Source: Cenococcum geophilum 1.58 (taxonomy: Eukaryota; Ascomycota; Dothideomycetes; Gloniales; Gloniaceae). Taken from it: a stretch of 64,000 bases of DNA. The stretch is taken from assembly GCA_001692895.1 (NCBI GenBank), contig KV748247.1, positions 620,001 through 684,000 on the forward strand. Reading direction: 5' to 3'. Shown here piece after piece: positions 27,851 to 58,431 of this stretch (the stretch's first letter is position 1; each line of letters begins with the position of its first letter). The position numbers were made by a program, and so were the translations under genes. The notes beneath the pieces were generated by a model. It did no database searches, was not told the DNA's origin, and worked only from the letters and a program-made list of their open reading frames with translations.

Positions 27851-28599
27851 CTATCGTCAATTCCATCCTGCCCTCTATACCTTTTCTCCCCCTCTTATTC
27901 GCTCGCTTGTTTTAATAGGGTATTGGTGCATTGGTACCTCTCCACTACCGACCTACCGATCTAAATCGATCCGTGTTAACGACTTTATCAACCAACTACT
28001 TTAATAATTAAATCGACCGGATTTATACCAAGACTAATACTAGAGGCGACGCGCTCTATACGCATAAGAGGATATTTTAGAAGCCTTCCGAAAAACAACC
28101 AAGTAAAAAGGNGGGGGGGGGGGGGATTTGTTATGGGACTCACCCGTTTTTAACGTTCCTTACCTATGCTCACGTTTCGTCCCGTCCCCTTATAACCCCT
28201 ATTTATATACACCTGGTATATAAAGTCTTCTTCTTTATTTAAATATATACGAAGTCTTCCTAATTACTACTTTGTTTAGTATATTGTATTCGCTTATACC
28301 TACTCCGTAATAGGGATAAATCTAAAGCTCTAATAGGAATGCAAAATAAACGTGCCCCTTAGGCCCTGCAATTTTATTTTCTAGATAATCCTTTTAAGCT
28401 ACTAACTCGAGGAAATTAAATCTATAAGCCTTTTACCACATTAGCAAAACCACTATTAATTTCGCGTATTTTACACATTTACTTATTATAGACGTAAACC
28501 TCTATTAATCCTATATCGCCCTTTTTAATTTCCTTAGCCCTTATCTACTTATTTTTAAGACCTTTTTGCTATTTATAGCTTTACTATTTGTATAAATAG
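27851..28599. other. Intergenic stretch with the first palindrome and a G-run at an N
   Basis: No gene is recognised. CpG and CpA words survive better here than to the left (for example ACCGACCTACCGATC near 27950), so RIP is lighter. The G-homopolymer with an N at 28112-28125 is probably an assembly or sequencing artefact. Confidence 0.5.
28075..28095 (+). repeat. Palindrome copy 1
   Basis: TTTTAGAAGCCTTCCGAAAA, upstream of the first zinc-finger/recombinase-like gene. Confidence 0.8.
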
Positions 28600-31372
28600 A
28601 TCTCTTTTAATATTTAGAGTATTACTAAGTATGGGTATACGATTCCTACGGGTTTACTGTTAAGCTAAACCACTATAAAGCCTACCTAATAACTCGCCAC
28701 TCTAATTACCTAAACCTTAGTTGTAAGGAGAAAGTGTAGCTTATAATTACAGAGCTTATATAGAAGCCGCTATCCGATCCCTAAACTACCCGCGTATTAA
28801 CCCCTACCGTAGCCCCGTGTGCTATACCTTTTCTTCCAATCTATAATGGCCTTGCTTGCCTATAGTGTCCGTATATTATATAAGCGGAAAAAAAAATGGC
28901 TAACTATTGCCGAGAGGAGTATATTTCGAGCAAAGGCCGCAGAGGCCGCCTACCTAAGTCTCTTACGCCAGCACTGCTACGTTAGAAGAAGGTAATATAC
29001 CAACGTCTTTTTATTAGTAGCGCAGGGAGTTACTTCTTCGCTGTTATTTCGCCAGCTTAGCTAGAGGAAGAGAAAGGCACGTGGTAACGTTAGGAGATGG
29101 CGTAAGCTTTACCTAAGGCGGACTTTATAAAGGGTTAGGTCGATAAGTTACTAAAGGATAGTCTATAGGAGATTAATGCGTTGGAGGATATTATTTTAGA
29201 CAACGCTGCCTAGACGGAGACGTCTCCGTGGCTTAAGATAACTCGTTGGCCTTAATACCTCTAGGGTTATAGCTTTAAGGAAGTTACTCCCTTAGCCTCT
29301 CTAGCTGACCCTATAACGGAGCCTTTACTTATAGAGTTTTCCTAAAGCCTTAAGCGGATTATTAAGGAATCGCACCACTCTATATGCGCCGATAAAGTAA
29401 ACGTATTTAACCAGGCATGAATTAATAGCTTTATCTAGGGTAGAAGAGCTTAGGACTATCTACTAATGATTAAGCTTAAGAAGGCGATATTTAGAGGGTA
29501 TAAGCTAGTTTTCTAGCGACTAATATACTTTGCATTTTGCACCGTCTAGCCAGACCAGCGTATTGTGTTATTATACTAGCTAACCGCCGTATAGCTTACT
29601 TATCTAGACCGAATGATAGGGTATAGAGAGGAGCTGTTAGCCGTAAAAGCGGAGGAGAAGCAACGGGTAAAGAAGGATTGAAACTGATATAATATGCTTC
29701 TTAGGGACATCGAGTCCCAGCTAGACCGTGCCTGCCTCTTATTTTATATCTTGCTGCTAGATTATACTTTAAAAGGCGATCTTTTTAAGAGCGCCATAGT
29801 TGGGTTTTTAGCCGTATTAGGTGTAGACCTAGAGAAGAAGATTTTTAGGGGCGCGCATTCGTATATAAGTTACCTATTGGCGTTTATTAAGATAGCGTAG
29901 ATGCTCGTTATATAACGGGCCGTAATTATAGCAGAAGAAGGGGATATTAACTATTTAGTAGATATTTTAGACAAAATAAGAGAGTAATTTATGATCTACG
30001 GGAGCAGATCGCCCTTTAACTGGGTGCTGCGACTATAAGTATACGGTAAAAAAATCCGGAACACGACTATAAGCCTAGGCTATATCTATTAGTTGGATGA
30101 CTACGAGAAGCTAACGTATAAGACGCTTAAAATAACTATAACCGACTTTAAGAACTTTGTTTGTACGTAGGTAGAACTAGTGCAGTTAGAACTAGAATAA
30201 CTTTTTCTTTTATATAATAATAAAAAGCGGAAGGATGTAATACTAACTTTTCAGCTACGCGACTTAAAGGATAATCTAACTTAAAACGCTAAGGGGTAGA
30301 GTTTTCTTAAGGATACCTGGAATAAAGCCAGTTTGCCTAACGGTAAATAATAAATACTTAATCGCGTACTTAAGACGGATTGGCTATAGGTAGAGTTCCT
30401 AGAGGTGCGGAAGAAGGACGCGAAAGTAATATAGAAGCTAGCGGCGATAAAGGAGTACGTATTCTAGATTAATAACTTTTTTAAATAACTCCTCCTACTT
30501 ATCTATTTTACTTTGGGCCAACCTACTCGCGGCACAGAAATCCTAAGCTTATGGCATTTTAATACCGTATACGGGCACTACCGGAGCATTTTTATTAAGG
30601 ATAGGCTGGTTAGCACGGTAACGGCTTACTATAAGGGTTATAGTATTATTGGTAATACTAAGATTATCTACCGCTATCTGCTAAGGGAGGTAGGCGAGCT
30701 GGTTATCTACTACCTATAGTTAATTCTCCCGTTCTAGCAGAAGCTAGAGTTACTTACGTTCGATAAGAAGGATCGCCTATTGCTGTTTCTTTAGGCCAAG
30801 GGCGAGGAGGGCTAGGACAGTCCCTGGCTAATTATAGTGCTTAAACGCAAGGCGGAGAAGCATTTAAAAACGTATATAAATATTACCTTTTACCGGCACG
30901 CCGCGATTATAATATCCCGCGCTTACCTAAAGTATAGTAGCTTTAAGCGCGACTATAGGATAGACGATACCAGCGTAAATAACCAGGCAAGCCATATATT
31001 ATAGATTACTAGCACAATTTACGCATAAGGGCTAGAGGAGGCTCTAGGCGCGGTTAAGGCAAGGAGGGTAGAGTATTGAGTAATTAGTTGCGAGTGGCAT
31101 AACTTTCTTAGGTTTTAGGTTTACTTGGCGGTAAGGAAGCGGCCAGTATCTAAGTTAATTAATAATAGCGAAGCCTAGGCCGGTAAGGCGGCTAAAAGGT
31201 AAAGGCGTACCACGTCCTATAGAGAGGAAAGGGAAATTTAGTAACTAGAAGAGTTGTATATAGGGCTAAATACAATTAGTGGTAGGGTATATAAATAGTA
31301 ACGCACACTTCCTAGCTTATGTAGGGAGTATTTTCCGAAGCCTTCCTAAAAATGCCTATTACTTAAGTTGTA
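28600..31372 (+). pseudogene. Gene A: DUF3505-like zinc-finger protein with tyrosine-recombinase-like domain (broken)
   Basis: One plus frame runs from at least 28611 to about 31345. The N-terminus has a zinc finger with both Cys now Tyr (VYDSYGFTVKLNHYKAYLITRH), then LPIYNGLACL-CPYI..EKKMANYCREEY, the second C2H2-like unit of DUF3505 (family known from OrsD-type fungal proteins). A helical middle follows (29.3-30.4 kb), including the open piece from 29694. From 30513 the C-terminal domain reads GQPTRGTEILSLWH...YRHAAIIISRAYL...QASHILQITSTIYA, which resembles the R / HxxR-region / GHSS..T..Y boxes of tyrosine recombinases. No helicase follows. It is a paralogue of the front half of gene B. 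Catalytic assignment is inference; family identity is from memory. Confidence 0.75.
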
Positions 31373-31412
31373 ATCTATAGTAAGTATACTAAATAGGTAT
31401 ATATGCGAAATA
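31325..31412 (+). repeat. ~90-bp direct repeat, left copy
   Basis: GGGAGTATTTTCCGAAGCC onward, including a palindrome copy at 31331-31352 and a TAATCTATAGTAAGTA block. It recurs in the same orientation at 33830-33915, bracketing gene C. Confidence 0.75.
31331..31352 (+). repeat. Palindrome copy 2
   Basis: At the 3' end of gene A, within the left direct repeat. Confidence 0.85.
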
Positions 31413-31419
31413 ATTAAAC

Positions 31420-33650
31420 ATAGTTAAACTTTAAGAGCTAATGCGCGTTATTTAAGGCGTAAAGTATATCTAAGGCGTAAAGCAACTTACCCTATTACGA
31501 TATTTTAAACCAGATTATATAGTCGGCAGATTATTAGAAGACTCGTGCCCTTATCTCCGCCCTATCCTTTAATCAATTGCTTAACGCCCAATTTAATATC
31601 TTTACAGCTATTATACCCCAGAATAATGCCCTTAAGCCCTTACCTAGATACTATTATATACTATTATTAATTCCAATTATTATAAGCCTTTTTAGTACCG
31701 TACCATAGGTGGAACTAATTTTTGCTGGCTAAGGTTTCTAACTAAAAGGTAGGGTAGAACTATTTACAAAACTATAAGGGAATTGTACCCTAAACGAGCT
31801 CCGATCCGGATACAATTTCAATAAAGCCTATAGCTATACCTTAGCTGCAATCCTACCCATCTAAAATTCTAAAATCCCACCAATATCTATATACGGTCGC
31901 AATATAGTAAAGTGGTTAATTTGGGTTTGGATAAAAAGGGGAATTAGGGAATAGTTACACCGATCCGACTTACGTGCGCTAAAATTACAGTGCCAATAAG
32001 AGATAAGGCTGTAATTCGCCGTGCGCCCTAACCAGTACGTTAAATAGCGCCGACCGCCTAATTTAAGCTACGACTTAACGTACTAAGCCTTAATCGGCAG
32101 ATTTTTAGAAAGGCTTTTATAAAATGTCTATATTTACTAATATACACCCAATAATACTACTATAATAAAAGAAATTAATCCCACCAACTTAAGGAATAGG
32201 TAAGAAAGAAATATCCTTAATAGCTAGCACAGGATGACGGTTAAACAGCTAGAGCACGTCGGAAAGATCCATTTCCTACAGTTAATTATTACTTATATCT
32301 TTAATAGGAAGATAACTATAAGGTAGCTGCCGGCCCGCTAATATATTTTGCATAAAGTCTTTTATTAGTTAACTAAACTTAACGGCGTCTGGGTAAAACC
32401 GCTAGATAAGGTTAAGAAATACGTTAAATATACCTAATAAGAGCCGCTCTATAAAAGAATAAGGTATTTTAGATATAGGAATAAGAGCAAAAATGCTAGA
32501 ACTAAGTGCCTCCTATATATAATACCATCGATAGCCCTTATAAAGACACTTTGTAAAGTACCGCTATTACTTATTAGATAGAGCAGAGGAGTTGGCCAGC
32601 GATAAAGAAGGCGTATCCGTGGATGGGTAGAGTGCCTTAAAGAGCTGCTGCTTAACTAAAGACGCGTTACTAATACCTCTACCCTATATACTTAATCGCG
32701 TATAATCTAGAAGTGCTTCCGCATTTCGATAGCAATTGTAGAGGTGTGCGAAATAATGATGATAGAGAATCTCCTAAAGTATTCCGGTTGCTTTAATACT
32801 AGTAATGTTAAAGAAAGCCTTTTAGAAGCCTAATAGCGCCGCGTTTATATTCTAGCTGCTAGATATAGAAGTAACTAAAGACTATAATGATGATTAGGGA
32901 GAATATGAGGATAACTAGGGACCAGTCTACCGGTTCAAATCTATAGTGCCATTTTTTCGCCAGTGGGTAAGTATAGCCTTAACGTTCTTAACAGCTTCGC
33001 CGCTACTAATAGCGCTTACCCTGTAGACTAACGCCAACGCCTCTTATCTACCCATTCCTATATAGTTAGCCTATTTGGCTAACTAGCCAAGCTTCCTTCC
33101 GTTCTCCCGCATATATATATTCTATATACTATCCTCTTCCTTAATTATAAATACCTCTAAGAGCTTATTTTCTAACCTCCTACGCCTATTCTTTTCCTTA
33201 CGCCTGTTTATATTACCGACCATTATAATATACTCCGGGCCCGGTATAGTTATATAGTCCTAAGCACGCCTAGCAGGCGGTTAAGATAAAAAAGCATCAG
33301 ATATTAGCCTTAGCCTTTTGCCCCTATAGCAGGCATTCTTATCGCTTATATCCCGTGGACTATCGTCTATAACACTAGCCGTGGACTAAAACCGTACTAG
33401 GCTACCGTAGTTGCTGTCGTCCTTACTTTACGGCTAAGAGTTTAGACTAGCGTTATCTGCATTAACTGGTTTGGGTTTAAGTTATAGAAGCACTTTAGGC
33501 CTATAGGACCAGCGGATCTACTATAACGCATTTTCTAGTAACTTTGTAATAAAGAATAAGAGGCTAGGGTTAGTACTGTCGCGCACCTACACTATAGGCA
33601 TATTGGTGCTAATAAACAATGCCGGAAGTAAACGTAGAAGGAATGTCTAT
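31420..33650 (-). pseudogene. Gene C: unknown protein, minus strand (broken)
   Basis: I do not recognise this protein. The minus-strand frame gives protein-like composition over about 2.2 kb: a polar, acidic and then very basic N-terminal part (NINRRKEKNRRRRLENKLLE near 33.15 kb) and a longer body with segments such as KALYPSTDTPSLSLANSS (about 32.62 kb), QLPYSYLPIKDISNN and EMDLSDVL-LFNRHPVLA (about 32.25 kb). The plus strand of the same region can also be read with few non-Gln stops but has poorer composition, so strand choice is a judgement. The gene is bracketed by the two ~90-bp direct repeats, each carrying a palindrome, which makes it look like a unit inserted between genes A and B. 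Confidence 0.4.
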
Positions 33651-33829: not shown

Positions 33830-33915
33830 GGAGTATTTCCGGAAGCCTTCCTAAAAATGCCCTTAGCTGAAGTTATAATCTATAGTAAGTACACTAAATA
33901 GCTATATATAGGGAA
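33830..33915 (+). repeat. ~90-bp direct repeat, right copy
   Basis: Matches 31325-31412 and contains palindrome copy 3 at 33836-33857. Confidence 0.75.
33836..33857 (+). repeat. Palindrome copy 3
   Basis: TTTCCGGAAGCCTTCCTAAA, directly upstream of gene B. Confidence 0.85.
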
Positions 33916-33929: not shown

Positions 33930-36900
33930 ATATATAGAGAATCTAATCTATCTACTGGAATACCAAATTATTATCTGTACCGCTCCCAATTATTAACATA
34001 CAGTATAGCCTTCCGAAGTCTGCTAACATTTTAGCGGCATTTACTACCGGCTAGATAAAGTTAAACTCTAAGAACTAGCACGCCTTATCTAAGCCTTAGA
34101 CCAACTTGTCCGCAAACCTAATAAGTTACTAAATCTTCGGACCCTTAAGCAACCTATTCCTTACCTAAATATATATTATAACGGGCTCCTCTACTAGCTT
34201 ATACCGGAAATCTGCCGATATATATATAGAAGTACGAAGAAAATGGCTACACACTGCCGAGATTAACACTTGTGGAAGAAATACGCGTGTAAGGGCCGCC
34301 TAACTAATACTACCAGATGACTAACTAAACGGACTATACCTAATCCCTAAAAGCAAACCGCCTATTAAAGGCTATTCCTAAGCCGATATAGCTTAAGCTT
34401 CTTTGCCGTTAATATAGCTATAACTAATATGGAGGCGGACAACGTTACTAAAGCCAGCAACTATAATTTCCTAGCATTTATGCACGGTAGTCTTGTTGCC
34501 TATAACGAGAAGGAATAAGTGATAAACACCTATATAGACTGCCGAAATGTCTTTAAGATAGACCCCTAGGTAAAACGTGCTAGGTAGTATAACTACCTTA
34601 ATACCGCCGAGTTAGAATTACTCCTGGCCTTAATTAATAAACCTAACCCAGATAATAAGTCAACCCTTACTGTAATATAGAACGCTATGGCTAAGCTCTA
34701 CTAGACCTATAACGAAACTATAGCCTTAAAGGCCGGCATCTTTCTATAGACCGAAGCTATCCGGGACTAGGTATACTAGGACTAATACCGACCCCTCTAA
34801 TCGTACTAAGGCAAGAAGCCCCCTAACAACTACTATAGACCGTGGCAGATGGTGCTTATGTTCTTTAGACGGACATAGCCCGTAGTAGATAGAGTTAGCC
34901 CTAAATATACACTTAATAACCAACAAGAGCGTGCCTAGTTAGCGCTACTACGTACCGTAGAGCGTAGTACCGATACCCCTACCGGGTTATACGAGGGCAA
35001 TATACTTAGCCCCTTAGCTAAGGCTTACCTAGTGTTTTATCTTTCACTTCTAGACTAAAGAGTACGCAGTACCGAGTATAAGAGTCCCTTAGTATGTGCA
35101 TTAGCCCTATAGGGTATAACAGCAGCGGGGTAGAAGGAGTGCGGCGTATATACTAAAACACTATCGGCTATAATAAAGCTTAGTTAGTTTATAGTTGTGC
35201 AAGCTACCCTAATTGCTAATATAGACGCCGTCTGTAGCAATACCCACCAAGACATACTAAAGGGAAGATGCCTAAAGTCGTTAACTAAGATAATAAATAA
35301 GTTTATAGTGCGAGGGACCAAGGGACCGATATAGTGGATGCTAGACCTTTAAACCTACGGCCTAAAGGTGCACTTCGAAGCAATAATTAAGGGTGAGGTA
35401 AAATGGGTTAACGACGAGCTACTCTACAAAACCATTCGTTTTACAATGCCTAAGTTTCGCAGTTTTGTCTATAGCCTTATTAAAGACGTAAAACGTTTAG
35501 TCTATTAAGACCTACTATTTAATAAACGACGTACTAGTACCCCAACCGTGCGGATTAAAGCCCTTTAGGACGACCCCAGTAACTCCGTTCCTGGCTAGAA
35601 CTTTCTTTAAGACCCCTACAATAAGCATATTTTCTATACCTAGGACTAGCTTATAAACTATATTGCGCTAGATAAACAGCGCTAGGCTATATTTAAACTT
35701 TAAGGCCCAAAAGGTAGACCAAATAAGTCCGGTATTAAAACCTACCTTAACCAAGTTAAAGCGCTTTTATATAAGCTTCTAGTGCTTATACACGTTATAG
35801 AGGGCTAGCCCGCGAGAGGCACTAAGATATTAAGCATATACTATAGCAACACCATTGCAGGCAAACATTAAAACATTTTTATTATCTACGGTATGGTCGC
35901 ATTTGTACCTTAATACTCTAAGGGCTCCTACTATACCGGATGGTCTAAGGTTATTTACTAATTTATACCTAGCGAGGTCGGGAGATTAGTTGTTCTATAC
36001 CTCTAGCTTATATTACTATTTTAGCGCGCGCTAGAGCAGATGCTCCGGCTAGAGAACATTATATCGCATAAAATGTGGCCGCCTAACGCGTAAGGCACTA
36101 AATGGAACTCCGGCCGCTTTACCTATACCCTTTAGCAAGAAACGGAGGCTGGCCTAGGATATAGGCTTAATATCCAAACATACCGCTAGGTTGCGATTGC
36201 TATCGGTTAAAAGTACCTAAAGACTTAGTCTGCCTTTATTAAGAGTAGTAACGACAGTAGCTTAGAAAAGGATAAGCTAGGATCTTTTAATATAATATAT
36301 AAAGAGCAGGCAGGCCATATAGCCTAAATAGGCGAGACTGTATATGCGCGTCTTATAGAAGAGTTAGTTAAAACTACCGCAAGCAAAAGGTAACAATTCT
36401 AAAGATTAAGTACCAAGTAGCACGCCTTCCTAGCTTTTCTCCCACGTAGCGCTATAAACACTTCCTCTAAATCCTAAAAGCACGTTATACCTATAGATCT
36501 AACCGGCAACGCTAAGCGGATAAGATGGCGCGGCCTAAGAACCGTTAACGCTATAATATAGTTAAAAGCTATATGCGGAGAGCAAGCTAAATTTTAGAGT
36601 GTGTAATAGATTGGTATCCACGCAATCTTATATAGGAAAAGTCTAGTGGTTATTGTTATGCTAATAGGCGGTGGCAAGAGTCTAATATTTATATTGCCGG
36701 CCGCTTATAACAATACAGGCCTTACTATTGTTATTATTCTGCTACTCTCTCTCTAATAGGATCTTCTGCGAAGATACAAGTTGGCTAGACTATAGGCCGT
36801 GGCATAGGATGGGCGCAGCCCTACTAACATAGCATCGATAGTATTTATAACGCCTAAGGCGGTTAAAGCAGACAGCTTTTAGATATTTATAAATAAAATA

Positions 36901-38443
36901 CAAGTTATAGGCCGCCTAGTATAAATTATAATTAATAAATACCACACTGTACTAGATAAGAGCAGTAAGTTCCGCGCGCCTCTACAACGCCTAGGTCGTC
37001 TAGCAGCCATGTAAATATAGATAGTGCTCCTAATAGCTACTCTCCCCCCCAACAAAAGAGCAGCGGCTTTGGCGTAAGATATACTTTACCGCCAAGAGTG
37101 TTAAGTTAATTAGGGCGCCTACTACCAGACGTAATATACGCTACGCTATTATTAATATAGATAAGGAGCCGGTACAGAGCCTGATTATAGCCGCCATTAA
37201 CTAAGCTACTTAAGTTATCAGCCGCTATATTACGGGTCTACTAGAGCTATAGGGGAAAGTAATTATATACTACTACGCGAGATAGATGACTAACAGTCTT
37301 AGCAAAAGCCTCTACTATACAGCCTACTATTCCAAATTAATTAACCAAGAGGATATGCTTAAGCGCTTTATTTCTAGTAATAATGGGACCATTATCGCCA
37401 CGAGCTTACTAGGTTTAGGCGTTGATATACTTAATATAGACGCAGTACTGCACCTAAGAGCTCTAAGGTTAGTTAAAGACTACGCCTAAGAGAGCAGAAG
37501 AGTAGGCCGCGATAGAAGGGTAAGCCAGGCTATTATTTTTCTTAGTAATAGGCTCGATGCGCCTACGGATAGCAATTAAGGCCGTAGGGTAGCTCTACTA
37601 GACTATCTCTAAAGGAAAGCAGACGTTAAAACCTACCGTAGGGTAGTACTTAATAAATACCTAGACAGGAAAATAGACGGGATACTAATCCGGAATAGTT
37701 GCACTGACAGTAAGGAGCTATATAATATCTACGCTGCCAAACAGCTGGACGGTTAAGAGTTAGACGTACCTGTTCTTTTAGACGCTAATAAGGCCGAGTT
37801 TATAATACAGGAAGCGCGGATAAGCGTTTAGCGATTAAAAGTAACCGCCTCGGTAAGGGCAGAACAGCTTACGCTAGAGCAGCTAAGACACTGTCTTATC
37901 TAGTAGATGACACACTGCCTAATATACATAGCCCAGGCTAGCGAAGCCTTATATAATATACGCACCTATATTACGCCCTTAGCGGGCACCGTTTGGGATA
38001 CCGCTAGGAGGTTATAATTAATATTACACTTTACTAAGTTTAGCGGGTGTTATTACTATATGGTGCCTTAAGAGCTATATAACTGGTGGATAAAAAATCC
38101 TACCTAGGGCTAGAAACGAAGTGGAGTTAACCAGTACTAATATAGCGAGCTTATATTAAGCGTTATTCTAGGTATAATAGCGGCTATAGGGGATGTTAAA
38201 CAGGCCTAGGTAGAGCACTTATAGTGATATAGTACTAACTCTAAGGATATAGAGAGCATAGCAGCGTTCTTATCGGCAAAAGTAGACGCTAATCGATTAG
38301 AGGTTCTTAAATTATCGCTTAAGTTAGTATAGTTAACCTAAGTAGTAAAGCAACGCTAAGTTAAGGGATTGCTACCTTAATAAGGGTCTTAAATGGTGTT
38401 ATAGACGGCAGAGGTAAATAGTAATATAGATGGTAGATAGTAA
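33930..38443 (+). pseudogene. Gene B: DUF3505 - tyrosine-recombinase-like - RecQ helicase fusion (broken)
   Basis: The frame opens near 33955 with the DUF3505 start (LEYQIIICTAPNY) and second finger (ICRYIYRSTKKMATHCRD-H, about 34200-34270). A recombinase-like domain follows at 35.8-36.4 kb: PARGTKILSIYYSNT, YR-VAIAIG, then QAGHIA-IGETVYAR. A RecQ-type helicase occupies 36.6-37.6 kb: motif I MLIGGGKSLIF (36658), motif II IIINKYHTVLDKS where DECH has become NKYH (36913), motif III LLIATLPP (37027), motif V LLGLGVDILNIDAVLH and motif VI DYA-ESRRVGRDRR. One net frame change occurs between about 37070 and 37109. The tail ends at TAA 38441-38443. The order resembles the RecQ-like proteins of fungal subtelomeres (TLH type). 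Dead by RIP. Confidence 0.85.
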
Positions 38444-38452: not shown

Positions 38453-38475
38453 TTTTTTAGAAGCCTTCCTAAAAG
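38453..38475 (+). repeat. Palindrome copy 4
   Basis: Lies 10 bp after the apparent stop of gene B and opens module R1. Confidence 0.88.
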
Positions 38476-38499
38476 TTACCCCAGCTAACAGCCTAACTA

Positions 38500-40135
38500 T
38501 AGTATAATATTAATATATTTGCCCCAGTGATATAAGTAGTATAGATCGGTTCTAAAAATAAGGCCAAAACCAGTCTAAAATTTGAATTGAACCTTTAATA
38601 TGGCTGCTTTGCCTAAGGGTATAAAATATCACTATGCTTGCGTATCCAAGTTAGGTAATTCTTTTCCTTAATAACGTTCTAAATTCGTTTTACTTAGCTA
38701 TATATTAAGTTAGCTAATTTATAGAGGAGGGAATACTAGCCTTATAACTTTCCCTCTTTATTATAACGGACGCGATATATCTTATATAGTAGCTCCTAAA
38801 TAGTTAGGGGGTTAGCTAAGTCTTTTTCTATGTCCATAGTAATATAGAATAAGATTTGGTTTAGCTCTAGGGCTTAAAACGGCTTAATATGGGCGTAGTG
38901 TTTCCTAAATTCTAAACTATCGGTTAAACGTCCTGTAAAAGCAAAATATGCCTTAATAGCGTTGGTGTACTCAAAAGGGTCCCGACTAGTAAATTCGTTT
39001 ACTCAAAGTTTAAGAATTATATATTTTGGCTGGTGTTTAGCACTAGAGGGGTTTAATATTATAATATATAGATAAGGGGTATTAGCCTTTAGTTATTTAG
39101 GATTTTTAGGTAGTTAGAAGTATAGGGAAATTGCTTAGCTACTAGAAGCGTCGGCCACTATATGCACGCAGCCACCTTATGTACGTTATTACGGCCTAGC
39201 GGAACAGCAACCAATAAGAGACCTAGGTGGTGGTAAGATTGGTTTACCTACGGGACTAATAGATACTTATTATAAATTAATAATAGGGTATCTACATAAG
39301 TGTAAATAAACCAACCGTTAGCACGGGTCATGTGACCTATTTATTAGTACTATTATAGAAGTAGTCCGCGACTCCAGTTAAGGTTATTAGGACTTAGCAA
39401 GGTAAGCTAACAGATTATAATAGAGGAATAATATAGAATATGGCACGACTACTATTACGCTTATAGAGTAACAATTCTTCTTAGACGGTTTTTTAGTAAA
39501 TATCGCATCTTACTTCGCCCTTTAAGCCCATCTCCTAAGGTATTATAAGGTAGGAAGTATATTAATCATTGCCTCCTTATACCCCAGGCCTTATAGACCT
39601 ATAATACTACTACTATTTTAACCTAAACCCGAACCGGGCTACCTATTTATTAAGTCCTTAGCGCTAAAGTTTTATACATTACACCTAATCCTTAGTTATA
39701 CCTATTACTAAGTACGTATCTAGATATAATTACTGCGAATGCTTAGAGCTTAGAGGAGATAGGCCATAATAAGGTGGATATAAACCAGCTAAGTCTTGGT
39801 CTTATATATTAAGGGCTTATAGAAGATCTTATATAGATCCACTTACAGGCATATAAATTTCTTAGTTAGGGCGTACAAGAGCCACTAAATATCTAACGTA
39901 ATAATAGGGATAGAGATGGCCATAATCCTAATAATAATAGCAACATTGCTCGCATATTTTAAAGAGAATAAATTAGAGTAAGATCTAGGCGGCGTTAAGA
40001 AGGATAGTATAGCCTTAGTAGGGTGTTTATAAGGACTGACTCCGCACTATATAAAAGGTTTATAGAGTCGGGCATTACTACTACCCGACGAGGCGCTACC
40101 TTAGTAGCATTATACGACACTAGGCTATATAGCAT
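38500..40135 (-). pseudogene. Unknown repeated gene, copy R1 (broken)
   Basis: I do not recognise the family. A start is possible at 40135 (ATG, then LYSLVSYNATKVAPRR). The most protein-like part is the C-terminal third, read on the minus strand at 38640-39050: KLRVNEFTSRDPFEY, then NAIKAYFAFTGRLTDSLEFR, then HYAHIKPF-ALELNQILFY and KDLANPLTI-ELLYKIYRVRY. The same segments recur in R2, R3 and R4 with mostly conservative or transition differences, which supports real coding origin. The middle (39.1-39.8 kb) is poorly readable and may contain introns or frame changes. It is flanked by palindromes at 38453 and 40605. Confidence 0.5.
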
Positions 40136-40236
40136 TAGGGGTAGGGGAGTACTACTTATATAAAAAAATGCACATAACGGGGGTGATAAAGGCGATATTT
40201 AGTGCTGAAGAGAAATTCGTTTTACTAATCTCTACT

Positions 40237-40384: not shown

Positions 40385-40435
40385 GCGTAACCTCTAGGGC
40401 GAGAAATATAAATGCTTTTATAAACCTTTGCTAAG

Positions 40436-40570: not shown

Positions 40571-40604
40571 TGTTACCTAGATAGTAGATAGCAAATTAAG
40601 GCAG

Positions 40605-44475: not shown

Positions 44476-44477
44476 AC

Positions 44478-44849: not shown

Positions 44850-46514
44850 TAATCGTAGTATAATATTAATATTACTTTGCCCCAGTAATGCAAGCGGTTT
44901 AGATTAATTCTAAAGTCTAAAATCTAAATTAAACCTTTAATATGGTTGCTTTGCCTAAAGGTATAGAAATATCACTATACTTGCGTATCTAGAGTTAGGT
45001 AATTCTTTTCCTCAACGTTCCTTAGTTCGTTTTTACTTGGCTATACCTTCCTTAATTACGATGGACGCGATATATTATTATGCGGTAGCTCCTAGATAGC
45101 TAGGGGATTAGGTAAGTCTTTCTTTATATCTATAGTAATATAAAATAGATCTAGTTTATATCTAGGGCTTTAAAACGGCTTAATATAGGGCGTAGTGTTT
45201 CCTAATTCTAAATTATTAGTTAAACGTCCTGTAAAGGCGAGATATACCTTAATAGCATTGATGTACTCGGAATAGTCCCAACTAGTAAAATTGTTTACTT
45301 AAAGTCTAAGAATTATACGTTTTTGGCTAGCGTTTAGCACTAGGGGTTTTATTAATATATAGGGGCGTTTAACATTGGTTGCGGTCTAAGGATTTTAGGG
45401 GTTAGAGTAGGGAAATTGCTTGGCTATTATAAGCTTCGGCTACGTACGCTACTACGGCTAGCTAAGTAGCAACCTAATAGGAGATCTAGGTGGTAAGTAA
45501 TGCTTAGATTCGCCTATAAGAATTCAGTTACTTATATGAAACTATAAATACGGATATCTATATAGCGTAACTAAACTAACTAATTCAGGTATGTAGGTTA
45601 TATAAACCCTTTAATATTCATGTATAAATTATCCTATATAGGTGTATAGATAATGGAATTCTAAACGCACTAACTTTAGCTTTTATATTTAGTTAAAAAA
45701 TAACTTTATATATAATAAGTTATAGCAGAATCTATATAATAAAATATTAAAATTTATAGAAGTATAAGTAAGTCTACACCCTAAATGCTATATATTTAGG
45801 CCTAAAAATAATTAACAAAGAGGAACTTATATATGATTTTTGGGACTAGGTGAATCTTTCTTAAACAATTTTATAAATTATTTTTAAGATATAGAGGCGT
45901 TTATAAACACTCCNTAGGACTACTAAATAAGGAANTTCGCAATAACTAAAACAGCCCTTTNNCTAAAAAACACGTGTTGGCTTATAAAATTTCCACCCTA
46001 AGGCAAAATATGCAAATAGACGTCAGATAAAAGTTAATCTTTAATAATATTAGATATGGGTTTAATATACATGCTATGTCTACTTCCCCTAAACACCATT
46101 AAAGGGCAAGTATTTAGAGGTGGTATAGGTGGGAATGAATAAACTAATCAAAAGTCTTATTATTTAGTGAAGAATTTAGTATAACGCTTAATTAATTGAG
46201 CGTATAATAAGAAGGTTAATATATAATCCACTTATAGGCACATAAACTTCTTAGTTAGGGCGTGCAAGAGCTACTAAATATTTAATATAATAATAGGGAT
46301 AGAGATAACCACAATCCTAGTAATAATGGCAACGTTACTTACACATTTTAAAGAAAATAAATTAGAGTAAGATCTAGGCGGCGTTAAGAAGGATAGTATA
46401 GCCTTAGTAGGGTGCTTATAAGGACTAAGGCCGCACTATATAAACAGTTTATATTACTGCTGCCCAATAAGGCGCTACCTTAGTAGTATTATACGACACT
46501 AGACCACATAGCAT
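44850..46514 (-). pseudogene. Unknown repeated gene, copy R3 (interrupted and broken)
   Basis: The C-terminal block and the N-terminal start region (near 46514) are recognisable by comparison with R1 and R2. The centre is replaced by 45500-46209. No additional function can be read. Confidence 0.45.
45500..46209. other. Unassigned ~700-bp insert within R3
   Basis: AT-rich, with several N (45914, 45935, 45961-45962). CA/TG dinucleotides are more frequent than around it (for example AAGGCAAAATATGCAAATAG near 46000), suggesting less or later mutation. I see no coding frame, terminal repeats or target duplication. Confidence 0.4.
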
Positions 46515-46552
46515 TAGGGGTAAAAAAGTACTACTTATTTTAAAAAAACATA

Positions 46553-46600
46553 GGCTAGCTACTAAGGCGTTAGCTAAGCTAAGGGATTACTACCTTAATA
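46553..46600. repeat. Gypsy-1 LTR remnant
   Basis: AGGCTAGCTACTAAGGCGTTAGCTAAG (split AGGCTAGCTACT/AAGGCGTTAGCTAAG) corresponds to 40545-40567. Confidence 0.5.
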
Positions 46601-46671
46601 AAGGTCTAAAATGGTATTATAGACGGTAAAGGTAAATAGTAATATAGAGAGTAGATAGCAAATTAAGGTAG

Positions 46672-46694
46672 TTTTTTAGAAGCCTTTTTAAAAG
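46672..46694 (+). repeat. Palindrome copy 8
   Basis: Core decayed to AGAAGCCTTTTTA. Confidence 0.75.
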
Positions 46695-46714
46695 TCCCCC
46701 TAGCTAGCGGCCTA

Positions 46715-47440
46715 ACTATAGTACAACATTAATCTATTACTTTGCCCTAGTAATGCAAGTGGTTTAGATAGGTTCTAGAATAAGGCCAAAACTAGTCTAA
46801 AATCTAAATCTAACCTTTAATATGGCTGCTTTGCCTAAGGGTATAAAACATCACTATACTTGCGTATCCGAGTTAGGTAATTTATTTCCTTAATAACATT
46901 CTAAATTTGTTTTACTTAGCTATATACTAAGTTAGCTAATTTATAGAAGAGGGAATACTAGCCTTATAACTTTCCCTCCTTATTATAATGGACGCGATAT
47001 ATCTTATATAGTAGCTCCTAGATAGTTAGGGGGTTAGGTATATCTTTTTCTATATTTATAGTAATATAAAATAAGATCTAGTTTATATCTAGGGCTTAAA
47101 ACGGCTTAATATAGGCGTAGTGTTTCTAGAATTCTAAATTATTAGTTAAACGTCCTGTAAAGGCGAGATATACCTTAATAGCATTGATGTACTCGGAATA
47201 GTCCCAACTAGTAAATTTGTTTACTTAAAGTCTAAGAATTATACGTTTTGGCTAGCGTTTAGCACTAGGGGGTTTAGTACTAGGGGCGTTTAACATTGTG
47301 CGGTCTAAGGATTTTAGGGGTTAGAGTATAGGGAAATTGCTTGGCTATTATAAGCTTCGGCTACGTACGCTACTACGGCCTAGCTAAGTAGCAACTAATA
47401 GGAGATCTAGGCGGTAGTAATGCTTAAAAGGAATCCGTTC
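46715..47440 (-). pseudogene. Unknown repeated gene, copy R4 (C-terminal part)
   Basis: Matches the 38640-39150 segment of R1 (VNKFTSWDYSEYINAIKVY-type reading near 47170-47230). It has no start region. Confidence 0.45.
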
Positions 47441-47490
47441 TACTATTCCTTACTATAGCGCAACTTATAGAAAATACGGATGCTTTTATA

Positions 47491-47665
47491 AACCTTAACT
47501 AAGTACTTACTAGGTGGTAATGTACAAGGCAATATTTAGAAAGCCTTTTAAGAAATAGTCCTAGTATACAACGTTATCCGATAAAGGTGTATATAAAGTG
47601 AAGTTCCTAAAAGTCTATAAGGCGTGTAGGCCTAAGCGTTATATATTACGCGAACAGGCTAGCGT
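47491..47665. repeat. Block S, copy 3
   Basis: Matches 42500-42660 closely, including TTTAGAAAGCCTTTTAAGAA. Confidence 0.65.
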
Positions 47666-48193
47666 ATAACCCTAGGATTTTCGCTAAACTACTTTATAAG
47701 TGTATAGCGCAACATTTATATATAAACATCGCAATCCTATACCCAATTCACACGGTATATTTATAGAAATTTACAATTTAAATAAATAAAAAAGTTAAAG
47801 GCTTGGCGATTATATAAGCTCGCTAGTCTAAATTAGAATCTTAAGAGGTCTATAAACCTAAACTTCTAAATCTTCGACTACTTTTAACTTAAATTCGCAT
47901 TTTTTAAGTTAACTAATTTAGCCATTCCTAACCCAGCATTTTGGATTTTGGATTTTGAATTTTAGATTCTATTGTTTAAGCAACCGTTTATACTGCTAAT
48001 ACTACACTTTTAGCCTAACACGCGTTTAGGCGGCTTTGTGCCGCATCTGCTCTAGCTACTTTAGTCTTTTTTAGAAGCCTTTCCAGATTTCCTTTTATAA
48101 GTCTTACTAAACCCTTGCCTTTTTTTTTATTATTAAGGCTGCGCGCAATACTAACCGTGGATAGATTAAGCCGTAAAGTTAGTTAAATTACAC
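47666..48193. other. Intergenic region before the SNF2-like gene
   Basis: No gene seen. It contains simple TTTTGGATTTTGGATTTTG repetition near 47940-47965 and palindrome copy 9 at 48067-48090. Confidence 0.4.
48067..48090 (+). repeat. Palindrome copy 9
   Basis: Upstream of the SNF2-like gene; right arm imperfect (CCTTTCCAGA). Confidence 0.7.
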
Positions 48194-51100
48194 TTAGTTA
48201 ATTAAGATAGACAATAACCCAGCGGACGGTATTAACTCGCCCCGCGATCCCGATATGGCTATACCTACTACTAAGAATAAACACGTAAGCCTAGTAGCTC
48301 CCTTAATGGCGTTAAGCATATTACCGCTAAAGGAACATTTATAGAAGCCTTCTGTAAATAGTCCTCTACCTAAAACCGTAACGTTATTACTATTACCAGC
48401 ACGCTCTCTTTTCGCGCCGCCGTTAGACCTGTAGTGGGATTTTAATAAGGCACTTAGCGGCATTAACAATTTAATAACGGATGCTACTAAAGTAATTACT
48501 ACAGGCGGTGACGCGGCAGCTACTAACCCTGCTGATTTAGATGCGGACAGCGCAGACTCCCTTTAGGATTTTAACCTAAAGGATATTAAAACTATAGTAG
48601 AAGCACCAGATACCGAAGAGGGTAAGGACGCTAATATCGCCAGAAGCTTACCCAAACTGGCCAACTTCTATAATCTCTTTACTTGAGAACTAAGCCATAT
48701 TATAGAGAACGAACCATTTATATCTATATTTAAGGCTATTAACGAAGCCGTCTTTTAGCTAGCTCATAAGGTGTCTATACACACGCAGAAACCTTAGCCC
48801 CGCATATTTAACCTAAAAACGGTTGTCTATACACTGTCTGCGGGAGAGTATTACGGCAACTAGAAGTTCTCTAATCCTTAGTTAGAAAAACAGGACGGAT
48901 AGAGCTCTATCGACCACTATGCCAATTTTCTATATAAAATAAGACAAACCTTCTACTTTAGGAAAGGAGGATTTCTCTTTAGTAAAGGCTTAACTAAGGA
49001 TATAGCTAACCAGCGCATCTGGTTAATTCTTAAGCGCGCTAATGCATATAATGCTCCTTCTAGGGTTATAAAACGCAAGCATAAAGCAAATAAGCGCAAG
49101 CTTAAGGGTTTAGAAAATAATACCCTAGGTAAGAGGCGATCGCGCGCAGGGAAGAAGACTTCTAGGAAGCCTTCCAACAAAAACCTAAACAGTACCTTTA
49201 GTGATGCCTTGCCGGCGGATAGCAACGATGACTATAATAAAGAAGAACTGGACATAGTAGACCCGCAATTAATAATTGAGGATATAGCCGTTAGTCCGGC
49301 AACATTTAATATAGGTAATAATGACGATAACTACGTCCGTGGGTTAATAAAGCTTAAGCTGCCCCCCGAGTTTCGCTAAGTAGCAAACTATAAATACTAA
49401 TACTGGTAATATGCCTATATGCGCTAGCTTATAAAGACGTATTATAAAGCAATAGCCGTTACTGAGCGGATGCAGTTAGGACTTAACAACGCCGCGGCCG
49501 CGAGGATAGATAGGTTAGGCATAGTAGATAGCTAGGCATAGGTTATAGAGGACAATGCTACTAAAAAAGACAATGACGATAAAGACCTTAATAGGGCCGA
49601 TAATATAGTTTGTATAGGCTAGCCTACAGTAAAGGATCTTAAAAACCTGGCTAAGCTAAGTAAGCTAATAAACAATGCCAAATACCAATAGGACAATATT
49701 AAAGAGTCTATGCAAAACCTTTGGATTAAAGATTAACGTAAACCCCGTCTCCTTCGCTAGTCGTTATCAACGCCGCTTCGCTAGTAGCAGCTCGTTGGGA
49801 TAAATACTATTATAAACGCACGTGAGCACAGAAAGATGCGGGGAATAATACTAGCGGACATTATTAGTCTGGGTAAGACTTTTCAGCTTACCGGCTATAT
49901 ATTATATATAAGTTGCTACTACCACCTATGCTAAAGGAGACTTTCCAGAAGGCTTCCTAAAATTGTTCTTATTTACTAACTAGCTCTTAAACAATTAATA
50001 AGTAGGAAAAGGTATTCCGCCGCGCCACCAAAAAACGTAACGCTGCTGCGCTTAAAGTAATTAGTCCAGCAAAGCCATTCCTAGTAGTCGTCCCGCTTAT
50101 GCTTATTAAATAGTAGATTAAAAAGCTGCAGCGATTCTTACCCGTCTTCGATATCTAGGTGTACTATAATAAATCGTTAACCTAAAAATCCGCCGCTGCT
50201 AATGTCTAGCGTTAAAATGAAATCCTTACGTAAAAGTATAAACTGTTTAACGGCGATCGCGCCAACGCACGCGTTATTGTTATTAGTACATACGGCACTA
50301 TTACATTACGTCACGGCCCGAGCGCACTTAAGAAGTAGCGTAAGAAAACCTATAGGGCGACGTTTAAGGCGAGGGGGTCGGTATATTAGCCTATTAACTG
50401 GTTTAAGACACTAGACAGGAAATGGCCCAGGGATCTCTTAGGTCGATAGTATAGCATTCTACTTAATAAAGCTTATTACGTAAGGAATAACAATTCCCTA
50501 GCGCATATTGCCATTAAGTTTATAGATTGTCCTTTCACCGTACTCTATAGCGCCACCCTACTATTTACAGGTATTAGGGACAACTTTAGCCTAGCGGCGC
50601 TAATTAAGCCTCGACCGAAGCTTAACTTCCTAATTAGAACTCCTAATAGCGCCGTCTTTAAGAAGAACGACGACCCCTTTAAGGTGGCGGACGATTACCT
50701 AGCGGCTATACTACGACTAACCTTAGCGTTATTCGCTGCGTTCGTCCTTAGCCTAAAGGATAGCGTTAAGTAGGGCCGTAGGCTTAAGCAGATTTGGTCG
50801 CAATATCTTATATATTAGCGGTACACGTCGTCCTATCCTATTAGTTCTACCCAAAATATAATTAGCTAGGCGCTCCCTCGCTATAAAAGCATCGTTCTTA
50901 ACCTTAACAATCCGCTAATGGCTTAAGCTATCTATAACACATTCGCGGAAGCCTTCCTTAAAAAGCTTATAGTAACGGACACCACTTGTATAGGGGACAG
51001 TCGCGTTATTATAAACGCTAACAGCTACTACGCGCTCGTGCTAATATCTACTTAGCCTATACTGGTACTCTCTTACTTAGCTATAAATCCACCTAAGAAG

Positions 51101-52396
51101 AGCAAAAAGGGCTGGTTAAAGAACCCTTATATAATCTATACCATTCTTAAACAAATAGCGAAGTCCCTAGAGCTTCCCGCGGCTATATAGCCGTATAACG
51201 TCCCGCCGGCATCTAATATTCTACCACTTATTGGGGCTATTCTGCAACACTTATCCCGGTTAAGCGCCCTAGTCGCTAATATAGCCGACCAGGTTATTAA
51301 ACGTAAGGAAAAGGCAATTGTTTAGTCGCTATACCCGCTAGAGCAGCTAATCATCCGCGAGATATTTGTGTCTTTTAGTATCAATACCCGCGTACTAGCC
51401 TCCGACCTCACTTAGGGCTAAAAATCCGATCTTATTAAAAATTTCAACTCGCTAAACGTCTACCAGGTCCTAATTGCCAGCTATATAGTAAATGGTACCG
51501 GTCTAAACTTGTAGTAAAGCTGCTATAATATCCACCTATTTAACCTAGCGCCTAGCGCAAACGCGTAGAAACAAGCAATTGGGCGTATATATTAATTAGG
51601 ACAGCCCCACAAGGTCATAGTTGTTAAATACTACGTGCGGCGGACGTTTAATAAAAAGGTAGTAAATACCTAGATCCTTCGCGCCCTTCCTAGTCTAATA
51701 GCCATAATTAATAAAGATTAAGTTTCTAAAACCTATATATACAATTACACAACGCCCAGGCTAGAGAACGTCCTTAATTTAATATCCCTAAAAGGTTTCC
51801 ACCTAAACAATAAAGGGAAACTATGGCATTTATTAAATCCTAATATCCTATAAGAGCTACTAGACAAACCCCTACTCAAACCTAAGAAAGTTCTAATCCA
51901 GTTCTTTACAACTTAACGCGGCCGCCAGGCTATCTAATATGGAGGTTTTAGTAAAGCCTTTTAGGAAAACCTCTATCTAACCGTAGAATCCGATCTGGAA
52001 GTCCAATCGGAAATAAAAGACGATGAGGATAAAGGTCCTAAGCGCAAGCCAAAAGCATTAAGACGTAAGCGTAAGGCTACGCCTAGTGAGGTTAAAGACA
52101 ACGAAGATATAGGTTCTAATACCGGTGCGGCGCCCGTAATAGCTATATAGAAGACACACTTACGCGCAGCAGGCAAAAAACCTATTAAGGCTGCCGGCCC
52201 TAAGGTACGAGCCAAAAAGGCGCCTATTATTAAGACTAAAGCCAGCAAACTAAAAATATTACGGGCTAAGTAGTAAAACACCGGGCCCGCTACTTCTGCT
52301 ACTACTACGGTATCCTCTAGCAAAAACCTATGGAAGCGCGCCAAGGTCGACCTAAACGTTAGTAGAATGACTACCCCTAACAATAAGTACGCATAG
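48194..52396 (+). pseudogene. SNF2-family DNA-dependent ATPase/helicase (broken)
   Basis: The frame includes an N-terminal region with KRKHKANKRKLKG and a further Lys/Arg run (about 49070-49180, nuclear-signal-like). Motif I GIILADIISLGKTFQLTGY is at 49842, where the Walker GLGKT has become SLGKT. Motif Ia KPFLVVVPLMLIK lies at 50072, motif II LLNKAYYVRNNNS at 50462 (DEAH changed to NKAY), and the C-lobe GLNL--SCYNIHLFNLAPS with KQAIGRIY-LGQPHKV at 51500-51640, the SNF2 motif V/VI block. A charged tail (PKRKPKALRRKRK, about 52030-52080) follows, with a stop at 52394 or slightly beyond. Motif I is in one frame and Ia onward in another; the change falls at about 49940-49990, at palindrome copy 10. 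Minus-strand open frames at 48194-48469, 48953-49225 and 51973-52383 are shadows. Confidence 0.87.
49942..49963 (+). repeat. Palindrome copy 10, inside the SNF2-like gene
   Basis: TTTCCAGAAGGCTTCCTAAA, G-centred. It lies between helicase motifs I and Ia, where the reading frame changes. Confidence 0.8.
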
Positions 52397-52431: not shown

Positions 52432-52453
52432 TTTTATCGGAAGGCTTCCTAAA
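52432..52453 (+). repeat. Palindrome copy 11
   Basis: 36 bp after the first possible stop of the SNF2-like gene. Confidence 0.8.
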
Positions 52454-52479
52454 TAAGTCCATATTGGTATTTTCACAAG

Positions 52480-53272: not shown

Positions 53273-53295
53273 GTTCTAGAAGGCTTTCTAAAAAG
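53273..53295 (+). repeat. Palindrome copy 13
   Basis: TTCTAGAAGGCTTTCTAAAA, between two minus-strand relics. Confidence 0.75.
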
Positions 53296-53941: not shown

Positions 53942-53965
53942 TTTTTAGGAAGCCTTCTAAAAAAA
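53942..53965 (+). repeat. Palindrome copy 14
   Basis: TTTTTAGGAAGCCTTCTAAA; the only C-centred copy in the right half. Confidence 0.8.
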
Positions 53966-55487: not shown

Positions 55488-56204
55488 CTCTAAGTTTACT
55501 TCTTTAGATATAGGGTTAATGGTTTCAAATTGCATATAGAGGACTTCTTAAGTTNGGTATTAGAGATATCCAATATCAATTCAAAATTGGTGATCGGGTT
55601 TATAGAGTAATTGGATATATNNTATTATAATAAAGATGTCTCTATAAAGTGGAAATAAATGGTAGTATATTATAATGGATTAATATATTATATAACATAG
55701 ATTAAAGGGAGTTTTTAGAAAGGCTTCCTAAAAATGTCTATAGGTAGTATACTAGGAAATAAAATATAGTATATATTGGACCAAAGTATTCTAAAAAGGG
55801 TGGTTATATTTAAAATATATAATAGGTAAGTTCTAATAGTAGATTAGTACAATATAGTTTAGAAAATAGTAGAAAATAGATTAATAGGTATAAAGTAGTA
55901 GAAAAAGAGGTATTATGGATAAGTTCTATAATATATATATTTTTATTTAGGGATTTTAAAAAAGGGTATACAGTTTAGAGAAGTGTAATATAAAATATAG
56001 CGATATAGTATTATTAGTAGTAAGGTAGTTTTAAAGGATAATAATTGGATTTAAATTATATAATGGATCGCTTACATAATCTAAAGTATATAAATTTTTT
56101 TTTTTTAATTAAAATCCTAAACTTCTAAAAGCTTGTTACGGAATAGAACCTAAATATTAAATTTGACTCTATTCTAAGCATCCTTTATTAATTTCAATTT
56201 CGGG
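55488..56204. other. Intergenic region between D1 and D2
   Basis: AT-rich; holds palindrome copy 16 (55712-55735), N at 55555 and 55621-55622, and a 12-T run near 56097. No gene seen. Confidence 0.45.
55712..55735 (+). repeat. Palindrome copy 16
   Basis: TTTTTAGAAAGGCTTCCTAA, nearly midway between the paralogues D1 and D2. Confidence 0.85.
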
Positions 56205-57155: not shown

Positions 57156-57178
57156 TTTCTAGAAAGGCTTCCGAAAAA
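57156..57178 (+). repeat. Palindrome copy 17
   Basis: TTTCTAGAAAGGCTTCCGAA, just after D2. Confidence 0.82.
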
Positions 57179-57475
57179 TCCCCCCTTATAGTACCCCTTC
57201 CCCTAGTGGATTTCGTCCTAGTATTATTAATAAGAGCTAGGCAATAGAATTAATAGGATTAAGGCTCTATAGCTATATAGATAATTTTAATTCTAGTATT
57301 TATGTATGGTCTAAGTGTTATAGGACATTAGTAGGGGAAGGGGCGGCGGTAAAAAGTAATCGGACACTAATGCTTTAGGCAAAAAATACGACGGTATTAA
57401 GAAATGATCAATTCTAGTATTAAATTAACTCTAACTCTAGTACTAATTACAGTATAAAAAGTTTCGTGCTTAAAG
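57179..57475. other. Intergenic stretch
   Basis: No gene recognised; CCCCTTCCCCTAG near 57180-57200 and GGGGAAGGGG near 57330 form a weak inverted pair. Confidence 0.35.
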
Positions 57476-57832
57476 TTAGGTCTTTATTATTCTTCTATAA
57501 GGTTTAAAGGCTTCCTCTACAGCGACGTAATATTACTATTTCTTACAATTCTCCTTATTAAGTGTGCAAGTCTTAAAGATATCTATAAGGTCATTAGCTA
57601 ATAAAACCAAAGGTCTTCCGTTCTTCTCCTTTACAGAAACTAAATAATGGATTTTAGGAGGTAGAAGGCTAGCAGCAAGGGGCTCTTCTTAAACTGTAAG
57701 AGATTGTTTCTATATATTAGCAGGTATTAATTTTGCAAGGTTATAGAGGTTTACGGGGTCTCTTCTAGTATTCCAAGACTTACGACAGGTTAAATATTGA
57801 GGTTTTCTAATATGGGAAGTATAAGGAGGCAT
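57476..57832 (-). pseudogene. Gene E: small unknown protein of 118 codons (few stops)
   Basis: Not recognised. From ATG at 57832 the minus frame reads MPPYTSHIRKPQYLTCRKSW, then NTRRDPVNLYNLAKLIP, PLAASLLPPKIHYLVSVKEK, NGRPLVLLANDLIDIFK and ends RRIIKT before TAA at 57476. Only four internal stops occur in 118 codons, all TAA or TAG in positions that fit mutated Gln. Two of the Cys are in LTCRKS and KTCTLNKENCKK. Convergent with D2 and between palindromes 57156 and 58333. It looks like one of the youngest or least exposed genes in the window. Confidence 0.55.
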
Positions 57833-58431
57833 TCTACTAAGTGTTAAGTAAGTAGAGTAGAAGTAGAGTTAGTTTTTATAGTATAGGGGCGAAAAAAAGA
57901 GAATTTTTGGTGGGGTTAGATTGTGTTAGTAAGTTATAGTATTAGATTACGTTTTACTAGGGCGTTTGTAATGTTATATATATTAGTTATATATATTATA
58001 TTATAATATGTTTTAAATTTAGGCTTAGGTATATTCGGTTAAGATAAAGTTTCTTAATATTTTTAATATTTAATAATTATATTTTCTNTNGATGTAGAAG
58101 TTTTATAAGTTTATTAGGATTACTGTTAATTATAAAAAGTAGGTTAGAAAAGGAGAAGTTATAAAAAAAAGAGAATATATATATATAGGTATTAGTTAGG
58201 GAAAGGAAAGGGAGGAGTATATAATAGGGAGTTAGTAAGTAAGTTAAGTAGGTTAATAATATAAGTTAGGTTAATAATTATATTATATATATTAGCAGTT
58301 ATAAGGAAACGGCTATAGGATAATAGGGGATATTTTCAGAAGGCTTCCGAAAAATGGCCATTATAGGTATATATTTATAGGATAGTAGTATTTAGTAGTA
58401 ATTTAAATAGTAATAATAAGTAAAATAATAT
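57833..58431. other. AT-rich stretch with last palindrome
   Basis: Purine-biased AT DNA with N at 58088 and 58090; palindrome copy 18 at 58333-58354. No gene seen. Confidence 0.4.
58333..58354 (+). repeat. Palindrome copy 18 (last)
   Basis: TTTTCAGAAGGCTTCCGAAA. No further copy is found to the right. Confidence 0.82.

Follow-up and report, generated by a model that had tools for sequence, protein, structure and literature searches.

A repeated palindrome as a candidate family-specific address in a large OrsD and tyrosine-recombinase element of Cenococcum geophilum

We analyzed a 64-kb stretch of the Cenococcum geophilum 1.58 genome (hereafter the window; positions 620001–684000 of contig C72, in an assembly of 177,193,698 bases and 162 contigs) in which a short palindrome recurs among relics of OrsD, tyrosine-recombinase (YR) and helicase genes that belong to a large multicopy element. 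CpA and TpG are depleted across the whole window (observed/expected 0.23–0.62 per 2 kb) and TpA is raised, a combination that in filamentous fungi is the mark of repeat-induced point mutation (RIP). Given this base bias, and just one stop-to-stop frame of at least 150 codons in 64 kb, we treat the genes of the window as relics. Gene A (28596..31208, plus strand) corresponds to an OrsD and YR protein, its OrsD domain being detected in a Pfam scan that treated stops as X, and protein P0001 maps to it at 52% over 871 aa. Gene B (33937..38356, plus strand; homologues P0063 and P0065–P0069) is a fusion of OrsD, YR and RecQ helicase parts, for which six-frame Pfam scans of 28.05–58.05 kb (stops as X, with low sensitivity in relics) returned OrsD, DEAD and Helicase_C, the first two below cut-off. 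A RecQ-like helicase and DUF3505/OrsD stand together both in the frames of the window and in the intact homologue P0067. Gene B is followed by related tandem repeats, termed R modules, and the segment at 41 kb (together 38475..48067, strand assumed plus), which were delimited as repeat families and gave no match in the Pfam scans; the 3′ end of gene B is repeated at 44588 and 46513. An SNF2-type ATPase relic (48390..52393, plus strand, 5′ limit estimated) comes next, with P0070 matching it at 71% in the window and at 76% in a copy on contig C36, where the gene yields SNF2-rel_dom (4e-11) and Helicase_C (1.5e-5).

Tyrosine-recombinase-like proteins had been proposed for this region in an earlier note made from the sequence alone (the original prediction), and the catalytic residues and fold comparisons bear this out. 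The six residues R645, E648, K680, R767, H800 and Y809 (numbered in P0001) are invariant in 26/26 aligned proteins, while the histidine of the HxxR motif is not conserved among these 26 homologues. Structure matches of P0017, a natural shorter homologue of P0001, point to a YR catalytic fold and include the integron recombinase structure 2a3v; the model of whole P0001 gave no useful fold match. A tyrosine-recombinase catalytic domain is thus present in fungal OrsD/DUF3505 proteins, both those on their own and those with a RecQ fusion; the Pfam scan of P0001, P0063, P0067 and P0014 did not report it.

The palindrome was evaluated both as the 13-mer first described, AGGAAGNCTTCCT (at most two mismatches), and as a longer dyad, TTTTNNGAAGNCTTCNNAAAA. 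The 13-mer matches the window at 17 places, compared with 3.1 expected over its whole length, and 15 of these lie at 28.2–57.2 kb. The two outside that range (9169 and 61527) are at chance level, and those at 30388 and 36419 are within the coding sequence of gene A and gene B, where the longer site is not matched. The dyad occurs at 15 places inside 28.0–58.4 kb and none outside at up to two mismatches, and at 20 distinct places inside and one outside (3548) at up to three, compared with a mean of 0.37 and a maximum of 2 in 60 Markov-1 surrogates at the latter threshold. Clustering of the palindrome at 28.1–58.4 kb, as originally claimed, is thus upheld. In nine non-redundant sites picked by hand, offsets 1–3 from the dyad centre are identical on both sides in every case, offsets 7–11 hold A/T tracts, and offsets 15–16 read CC on the right in 8/9 and GG on the left in 6–7/9. 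The left arm is often TAGAAG in the window, a frequency that RIP damage would explain, with TGGAAG or CGGAAG (TTGGAAG, TCGGAAG) in copies that are less mutated.

Around gene A, sites lie at 28074..28094 (one mismatch; 502 bp upstream) and 31331..31351 (no mismatch; 123 bp past the last mapped base), and the leader after 31331 resembles the one after 33836 (83% over 60 bp). Beyond a decayed site at 32103..32123 (three mismatches; two at the matching place, C75:286385), the site directly upstream of gene B (33836..33856, one mismatch) ends 81 bp before 33937 and is immediately followed by an ATG, to which the first 23 residues of P0065 map; P0066 starts with the same eight residues as P0065. The next site, at 38454..38474 (no mismatch), lies 98 bp past gene B, and four more separate the modules, at 40606..40626 (one mismatch), 42724..42744 (three in the window, unmutated in other copies), 44810..44830 (none) and 46673..46693 (one, relative to the symmetric pattern). 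Two weak sites at 48068 and 48338 (span 48068..48358; three and two mismatches) sit near the 5′ side of the SNF2 gene, with weak matches near the corresponding places on C75, and a further site lies 41 bp past that gene (52434..52454, two mismatches). Sites continue to the right at 53273..53293 (weak, three mismatches), 53943..53963 (none, relative to the symmetric pattern), 55713..55733 (one; matching sites at C75:267065 and 302592), 57157..57177 (two) and 58333..58353 (none), the last of the series, whose C41 copy is fully symmetric.

Most copies had been placed at gene boundaries. This is largely right and the sites are mostly non-coding, with three standing inside the SNF2 gene: weak ones at 49160 and 50942 in exons and one at 49942..49962 in an intron. 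The intronic site, between the exon of helicase motif I and an exon mapped by P0070, is preceded by GTAAGT (in the C75 copies; ATAAGT in the window) and followed by TACTAAC and TAG, splice signals judged by eye, and it is kept in three C75 copies. Among the 15 sites with up to two mismatches, one falls in the coding sequence mapped for A, B and SNF2, compared with 5.4 expected (P 0.011), a figure that depends on estimated SNF2 exon borders, since 48338 becomes coding if that gene starts further left.

Searching the genome with window positions 48300–53900 returned 20 further copies (86–90% identity), which are spread over 15 contigs and in some cases split in two. Genome-wide, the 21-mer has 279 and 276 matches on the two strands (23 and 19 for the reversed pattern), and the exact half-match GAAGSCTTCCKAAAA has 73 (2 for the reversed pattern), some of which are the two strands of one site. 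Forty of these 73 lie inside scored element matches, 25 within 12 kb of one and eight farther away; fetched sequence or flanking genes placed seven of these eight in element copies, leaving C86:563643, which has no left arm and no window match in its surrounding DNA. The motif is therefore not scattered among unrelated genes, as 72/73 exact half-matches lie in or beside one multicopy, RIP-mutated element.

The 28.1–58.4 kb run is not a single unit: a left edge shared between copies lies within it. Among 12 long matches (15 of 888 candidates scored), ten begin at 31675–31678, the remaining two beginning at 31667 (C52) and 31853 (C76), and five different left neighbours stand beyond this edge (in the window and on C36, C75, C93 and C128). 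In the window the main repeated unit starts at 31678..31700 (plus strand) with ATTATAAGCC. Gene A is upstream of gene B in six copies, element length is about 27–31 kb, and C36:1-60000 holds two copies head to tail. By hand count, the right end faces the nearer contig end in 12 of 13 copies on contigs longer than 400 kb; many copies lie 70–210 kb inside contigs, and no telomere repeat is assembled. As (TTAGGG)5 is absent from the whole genome at up to one mismatch, telomeres are either unassembled or of different sequence. A 14-bp repeat at 58432–58568 was considered as a telomere and rejected, since shared sequence runs past it on C41, C52 and C75.

A second OrsD-YR family in the same genome carries a dyad of its own. 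A genome search with P0001 (53 matches, from 52 of 72 candidates scored) identified OrsD-YR matches on C122, C142, C148, C150, C151, C152, C155 and C156 and at C72:773–799 kb, and the loci of this second family contain no exact half-site of the first palindrome (family 1). The family was also placed at C72:773–820 kb. The C148 locus, chosen beforehand for a reading of its own palindromes and covered over 25 of its 26.9 kb, shows no family-1 motif at up to three mismatches, and repeat finding there returned the family-2 dyad TTTTGGCATRTTAAYATGCCAAAA. Ten such sites occur in the C148 stretch (surrogate mean 0.04, maximum 1, of 25), none of them inside the three mapped YR-type genes. Genome-wide, the family-2 dyad has 304 sites compared with none for the reversed pattern, and all eight of the contigs other than C72 are represented among the 100 listed of these 304. 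Both dyads share the plan TTTT-GG...CC-AAAA; a strict search for perfect palindromes recovered neither.

Diverged relatives of the element at C75:264–310 kb (loci L052–L056), which occur in both orientations and with R modules rearranged, share 65–89% identity with it in aligned blocks and allowed retention of the sites to be assessed over 23 site pairs (one not aligned at the motif, one partly). Transversions affect 60/697 positions of the 33-bp site compared with 738/4457 in the flanks, and transitions are alike in both (11.8 and 12.3%); RIP does not make transversions. At site 52434, the plus-strand C75 unit has no match at up to three mismatches near the expected place.

Each element family probably uses a private DNA address in the form of its own dyad. 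That related proteins go with distinct dyads in the two families fits recognition of each dyad by a protein of its own element, and the co-occurrence of both dyads in one genome points to readers encoded by the elements and away from a single host factor. The best fit is a boundary or regulatory signal recognized by such a protein, and our preferred reading, held tentatively and from sequence comparison, is that the dyad would be a two-fold symmetric, double-stranded recognition site private to one family. Its confinement to the element, the fixed letters around its centre, its retention in the C75 relatives and its scarcity in coding sequence also count in favour. The element is a large, apparently subtelomere-oriented unit encoding an OrsD/C2H2 tyrosine-recombinase protein, an OrsD-YR-RecQ fusion and an SNF2 ATPase, with the site repeated about 15–20 times in it, chiefly outside coding sequence (just upstream of a gene, 41–123 bp past mapped gene ends and in an intron). 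An element-encoded protein, the likeliest candidate being OrsD-YR, may bind the dyad as a dimer, and the main role of the site would be to coordinate expression or chromatin of the element genes. Several observations weigh against this regulatory reading. A plain promoter operator does not need sites past stop codons or in an intron, and three module junctions at palindromes suit recombination. The retention pairs were chosen for matching, which biases them toward conservation, and two exonic pairs are included. Furthermore, all six full-length gene A copies contain at least 17 stops, such that activity is not readable from them.

The strongest rival, which we consider possible but rather doubtful, holds that the element's tyrosine recombinases use the palindromes as core sites for recombination, whether to exchange modules, to resolve arrays or to integrate. 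In its favour, YR proteins are encoded by the element, a distinct dyad goes with the OrsD-YR genes of each family, and head-to-tail copies exist. To evaluate exchange, the 220 bp on each side of palindromes on C36, C75, C93, C52 and 3-kb loci were assigned to window palindromes; 67 sites had consistent neighbours, 32 were not assignable and five entries (four places) were inconsistent, with overlapping loci counting some sites more than once. Every assigned pair on C36 was consistent. Three of the four places join neighbours of different window palindromes with support: C75:295593 (left of 44810, right of 40606) does so cleanly and has no consistent alternative, C75:279067 combines the left of 38454 with the right of 44810 (247 bits vs 214), and C44:1328018 the left of 42724 with the right of 38454 (293 bits vs 240), the fourth, C75:283647, being weak and ambiguous. 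At C75:295593 the right neighbours are dissimilar and the shared patch is little longer than the palindrome; at C75:290833, 103 bp beyond a palindrome, the copy jumps to the segment right after palindrome 40606.

These three junctions are nevertheless confined to the R modules, whose palindromes mostly share 40–250 bp of similar flank, so homologous exchange or gene conversion may suffice to explain them. Over the R modules, the ten family-1 places that were scored (10 of 1727 candidates) keep a collinear order, seven of them running from gene B into R3 and the others covering part of it. Moreover, edges at 31675/31678, 45797–45799, 53474–53480 and 54494/54802 are not at palindromes, the edge next to gene A being about 330 bp from one; an alignment end of C75 at window position 32101 does adjoin site 32103, and homology resumes past it. 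On segment gains and losses bounded by the motif, a check first suggested in the note, the picture is mixed: the three R-module junctions would suit them, and the 67 consistent sites, the collinear order and the edges and large insertion off palindromes oppose them. Cassette-like exchange at the palindromes is possible.

Binding by a host factor (an insulator, origin, heterochromatin or telomere protein) appears improbable. Copies are oriented to contig ends and the sites are dispersed and mostly non-coding, as such a factor might have it, but the motif is nearly absent from the remaining genome and the second family has a different dyad. Slightly less credible still is an RNA hairpin acting in 3′ processing, termination or as a 5′ leader signal. 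The sites 123, 98 and 41 bp past the mapped ends of A, B and SNF2 would suit it, and the two most symmetric copies fold well, at −8.5 kcal/mol (z −3.1) and −10.6 kcal/mol (z −4.2), yet the other five of seven folded copies range from z +0.66 to −2.0, offset 1 is invariant while falling in an unpaired loop of those two folds, and one site is intronic and another directly precedes a putative start codon. A mobile palindromic sequence (MITE- or introner-like) spreading within the element, which the original prediction rated an equally good reading, would account for many intergenic copies and an intronic one but is very unlikely, given that 72/73 half-matches lie in or beside the element, sites occupy matching places in diverged copies and no target duplication is evident by eye in the examined flanks.

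Several known systems bear comparison. In bacterial integron arrays, a tyrosine recombinase stands beside segments parted by imperfect palindromes; most copies here, unlike such arrays, keep one order, with few exchanged junctions among similar modules. Starships are fungal YR-carrying elements with a DUF3435 captain gene, and DUF3435 was not found in the low-sensitivity scans of 28.05–58.05 kb or in the Pfam scans of the C36 copy and of homologues. Cryptons are short fungal YR elements with GCR1_C; that domain was found neither in the window scans nor in scanned homologues, and the present unit is at least 27 kb.

Reports of subtelomeric RecQ genes in fungi go back to the 1990s (references in PMC5576322). 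The Colletotrichum higginsianum repeats DHX_G198, DHX-chim_G203 and DTX-chim_G199, as described in excerpts of PMC5576322, are subtelomeric helicase/DUF3505 repeats of 11.3–18.5 kb that hold TTAGGG, one family being a variant with an LTR-Gypsy insertion. They resemble the present element in placing a RecQ-like helicase and DUF3505 (OrsD) in long repeats, and they lie at chromosome ends in one orientation; the present element differs in its length of about 27–31 kb, its SNF2 gene and R modules and the absence of (TTAGGG)5, and those excerpts mention neither a YR domain nor a repeated palindrome. Telomere-linked RecQ helicases, of which Mycosphaerella graminicola is an example, are described as AT-rich, multicopy and near telomeres in the portion available of PMC4522978, which has no occurrence of “tyrosine recombinase” or “palindrom”; unlike these, the present helicase is fused to OrsD and YR. 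In crustacean endogenous nimaviruses, tyrosine recombinases insert into telomere repeats (PMC10871703, in part). By description a C2H2 zinc-binding domain likewise accompanies YR in these large elements; they are viral/animal, and no RecQ fusion is mentioned in the sections available. The portion available of PMC10799480 contains nothing on OrsD. In the open-licence PMC literature we found no report of the YR-RecQ fusion or of the palindromes, and none in which OrsD/DUF3505 or subtelomeric RecQ is linked to a repeated palindrome or to a tyrosine recombinase.

The literature available names no enzyme for the spread of subtelomeric RecQ genes. The YR domain of such proteins offers a candidate for that role, the family-specific dyad may be a substrate or an operator, and because one genome holds two families with a dyad each, specificity can be tested directly. 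It is conceivable, though we think it doubtful, that fungal subtelomeric RecQ elements are YR elements (OrsD-YR and OrsD-YR-RecQ) in which a palindrome private to each family, dispersed among its genes and modules, is read by its own recombinase and serves both as a mark on the DNA and as a module exchange point at chromosome ends. Such a dispersed-site system would be unlike integrons, Starships or Cryptons.

Origin from a virus was considered and rejected, as P0063 and P0001 had no relative in the viral contigs scanned; the bare 21-mer in five viral contigs has flanks that, by eye, are unlike element sites. An Rfam scan of the window returned nothing at the gathering threshold.

Nine alignments end at window position 53480 and seven resume from 53474 some 6–17 kb further on; what several copies carry inserted at 53474–53480 is of LTR type and lies 190 bp away from a palindrome. 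The two inserts read, on C93 and C52, with terminal repeats of about 230 bp, resemble a retrotransposon-like stretch at 7.7–11.5 kb of the window, and a piece related to the end of the LTR-type insert lies at 60019–60166. The interval 45.2–45.8 kb, inside an R module, also varies between copies: C36 and C76 carry about 1.4–2.5 kb extra there, including an R-like piece at about 74% identity.

To the left of the element, 14–28 kb of the window forms an AT-rich block (26–33% GC) with strong CpA depletion. To its right, tandem repeats of 189 and 178 bp occupy 59130–60746, with similar repeats on C52, C76 and C114. The only family-2 motifs of the window at up to three mismatches, at 59816 (59816..59839; no mismatch to the relaxed pattern, one to the strict pattern) and 60226, lie within this tandem-repeat stretch.

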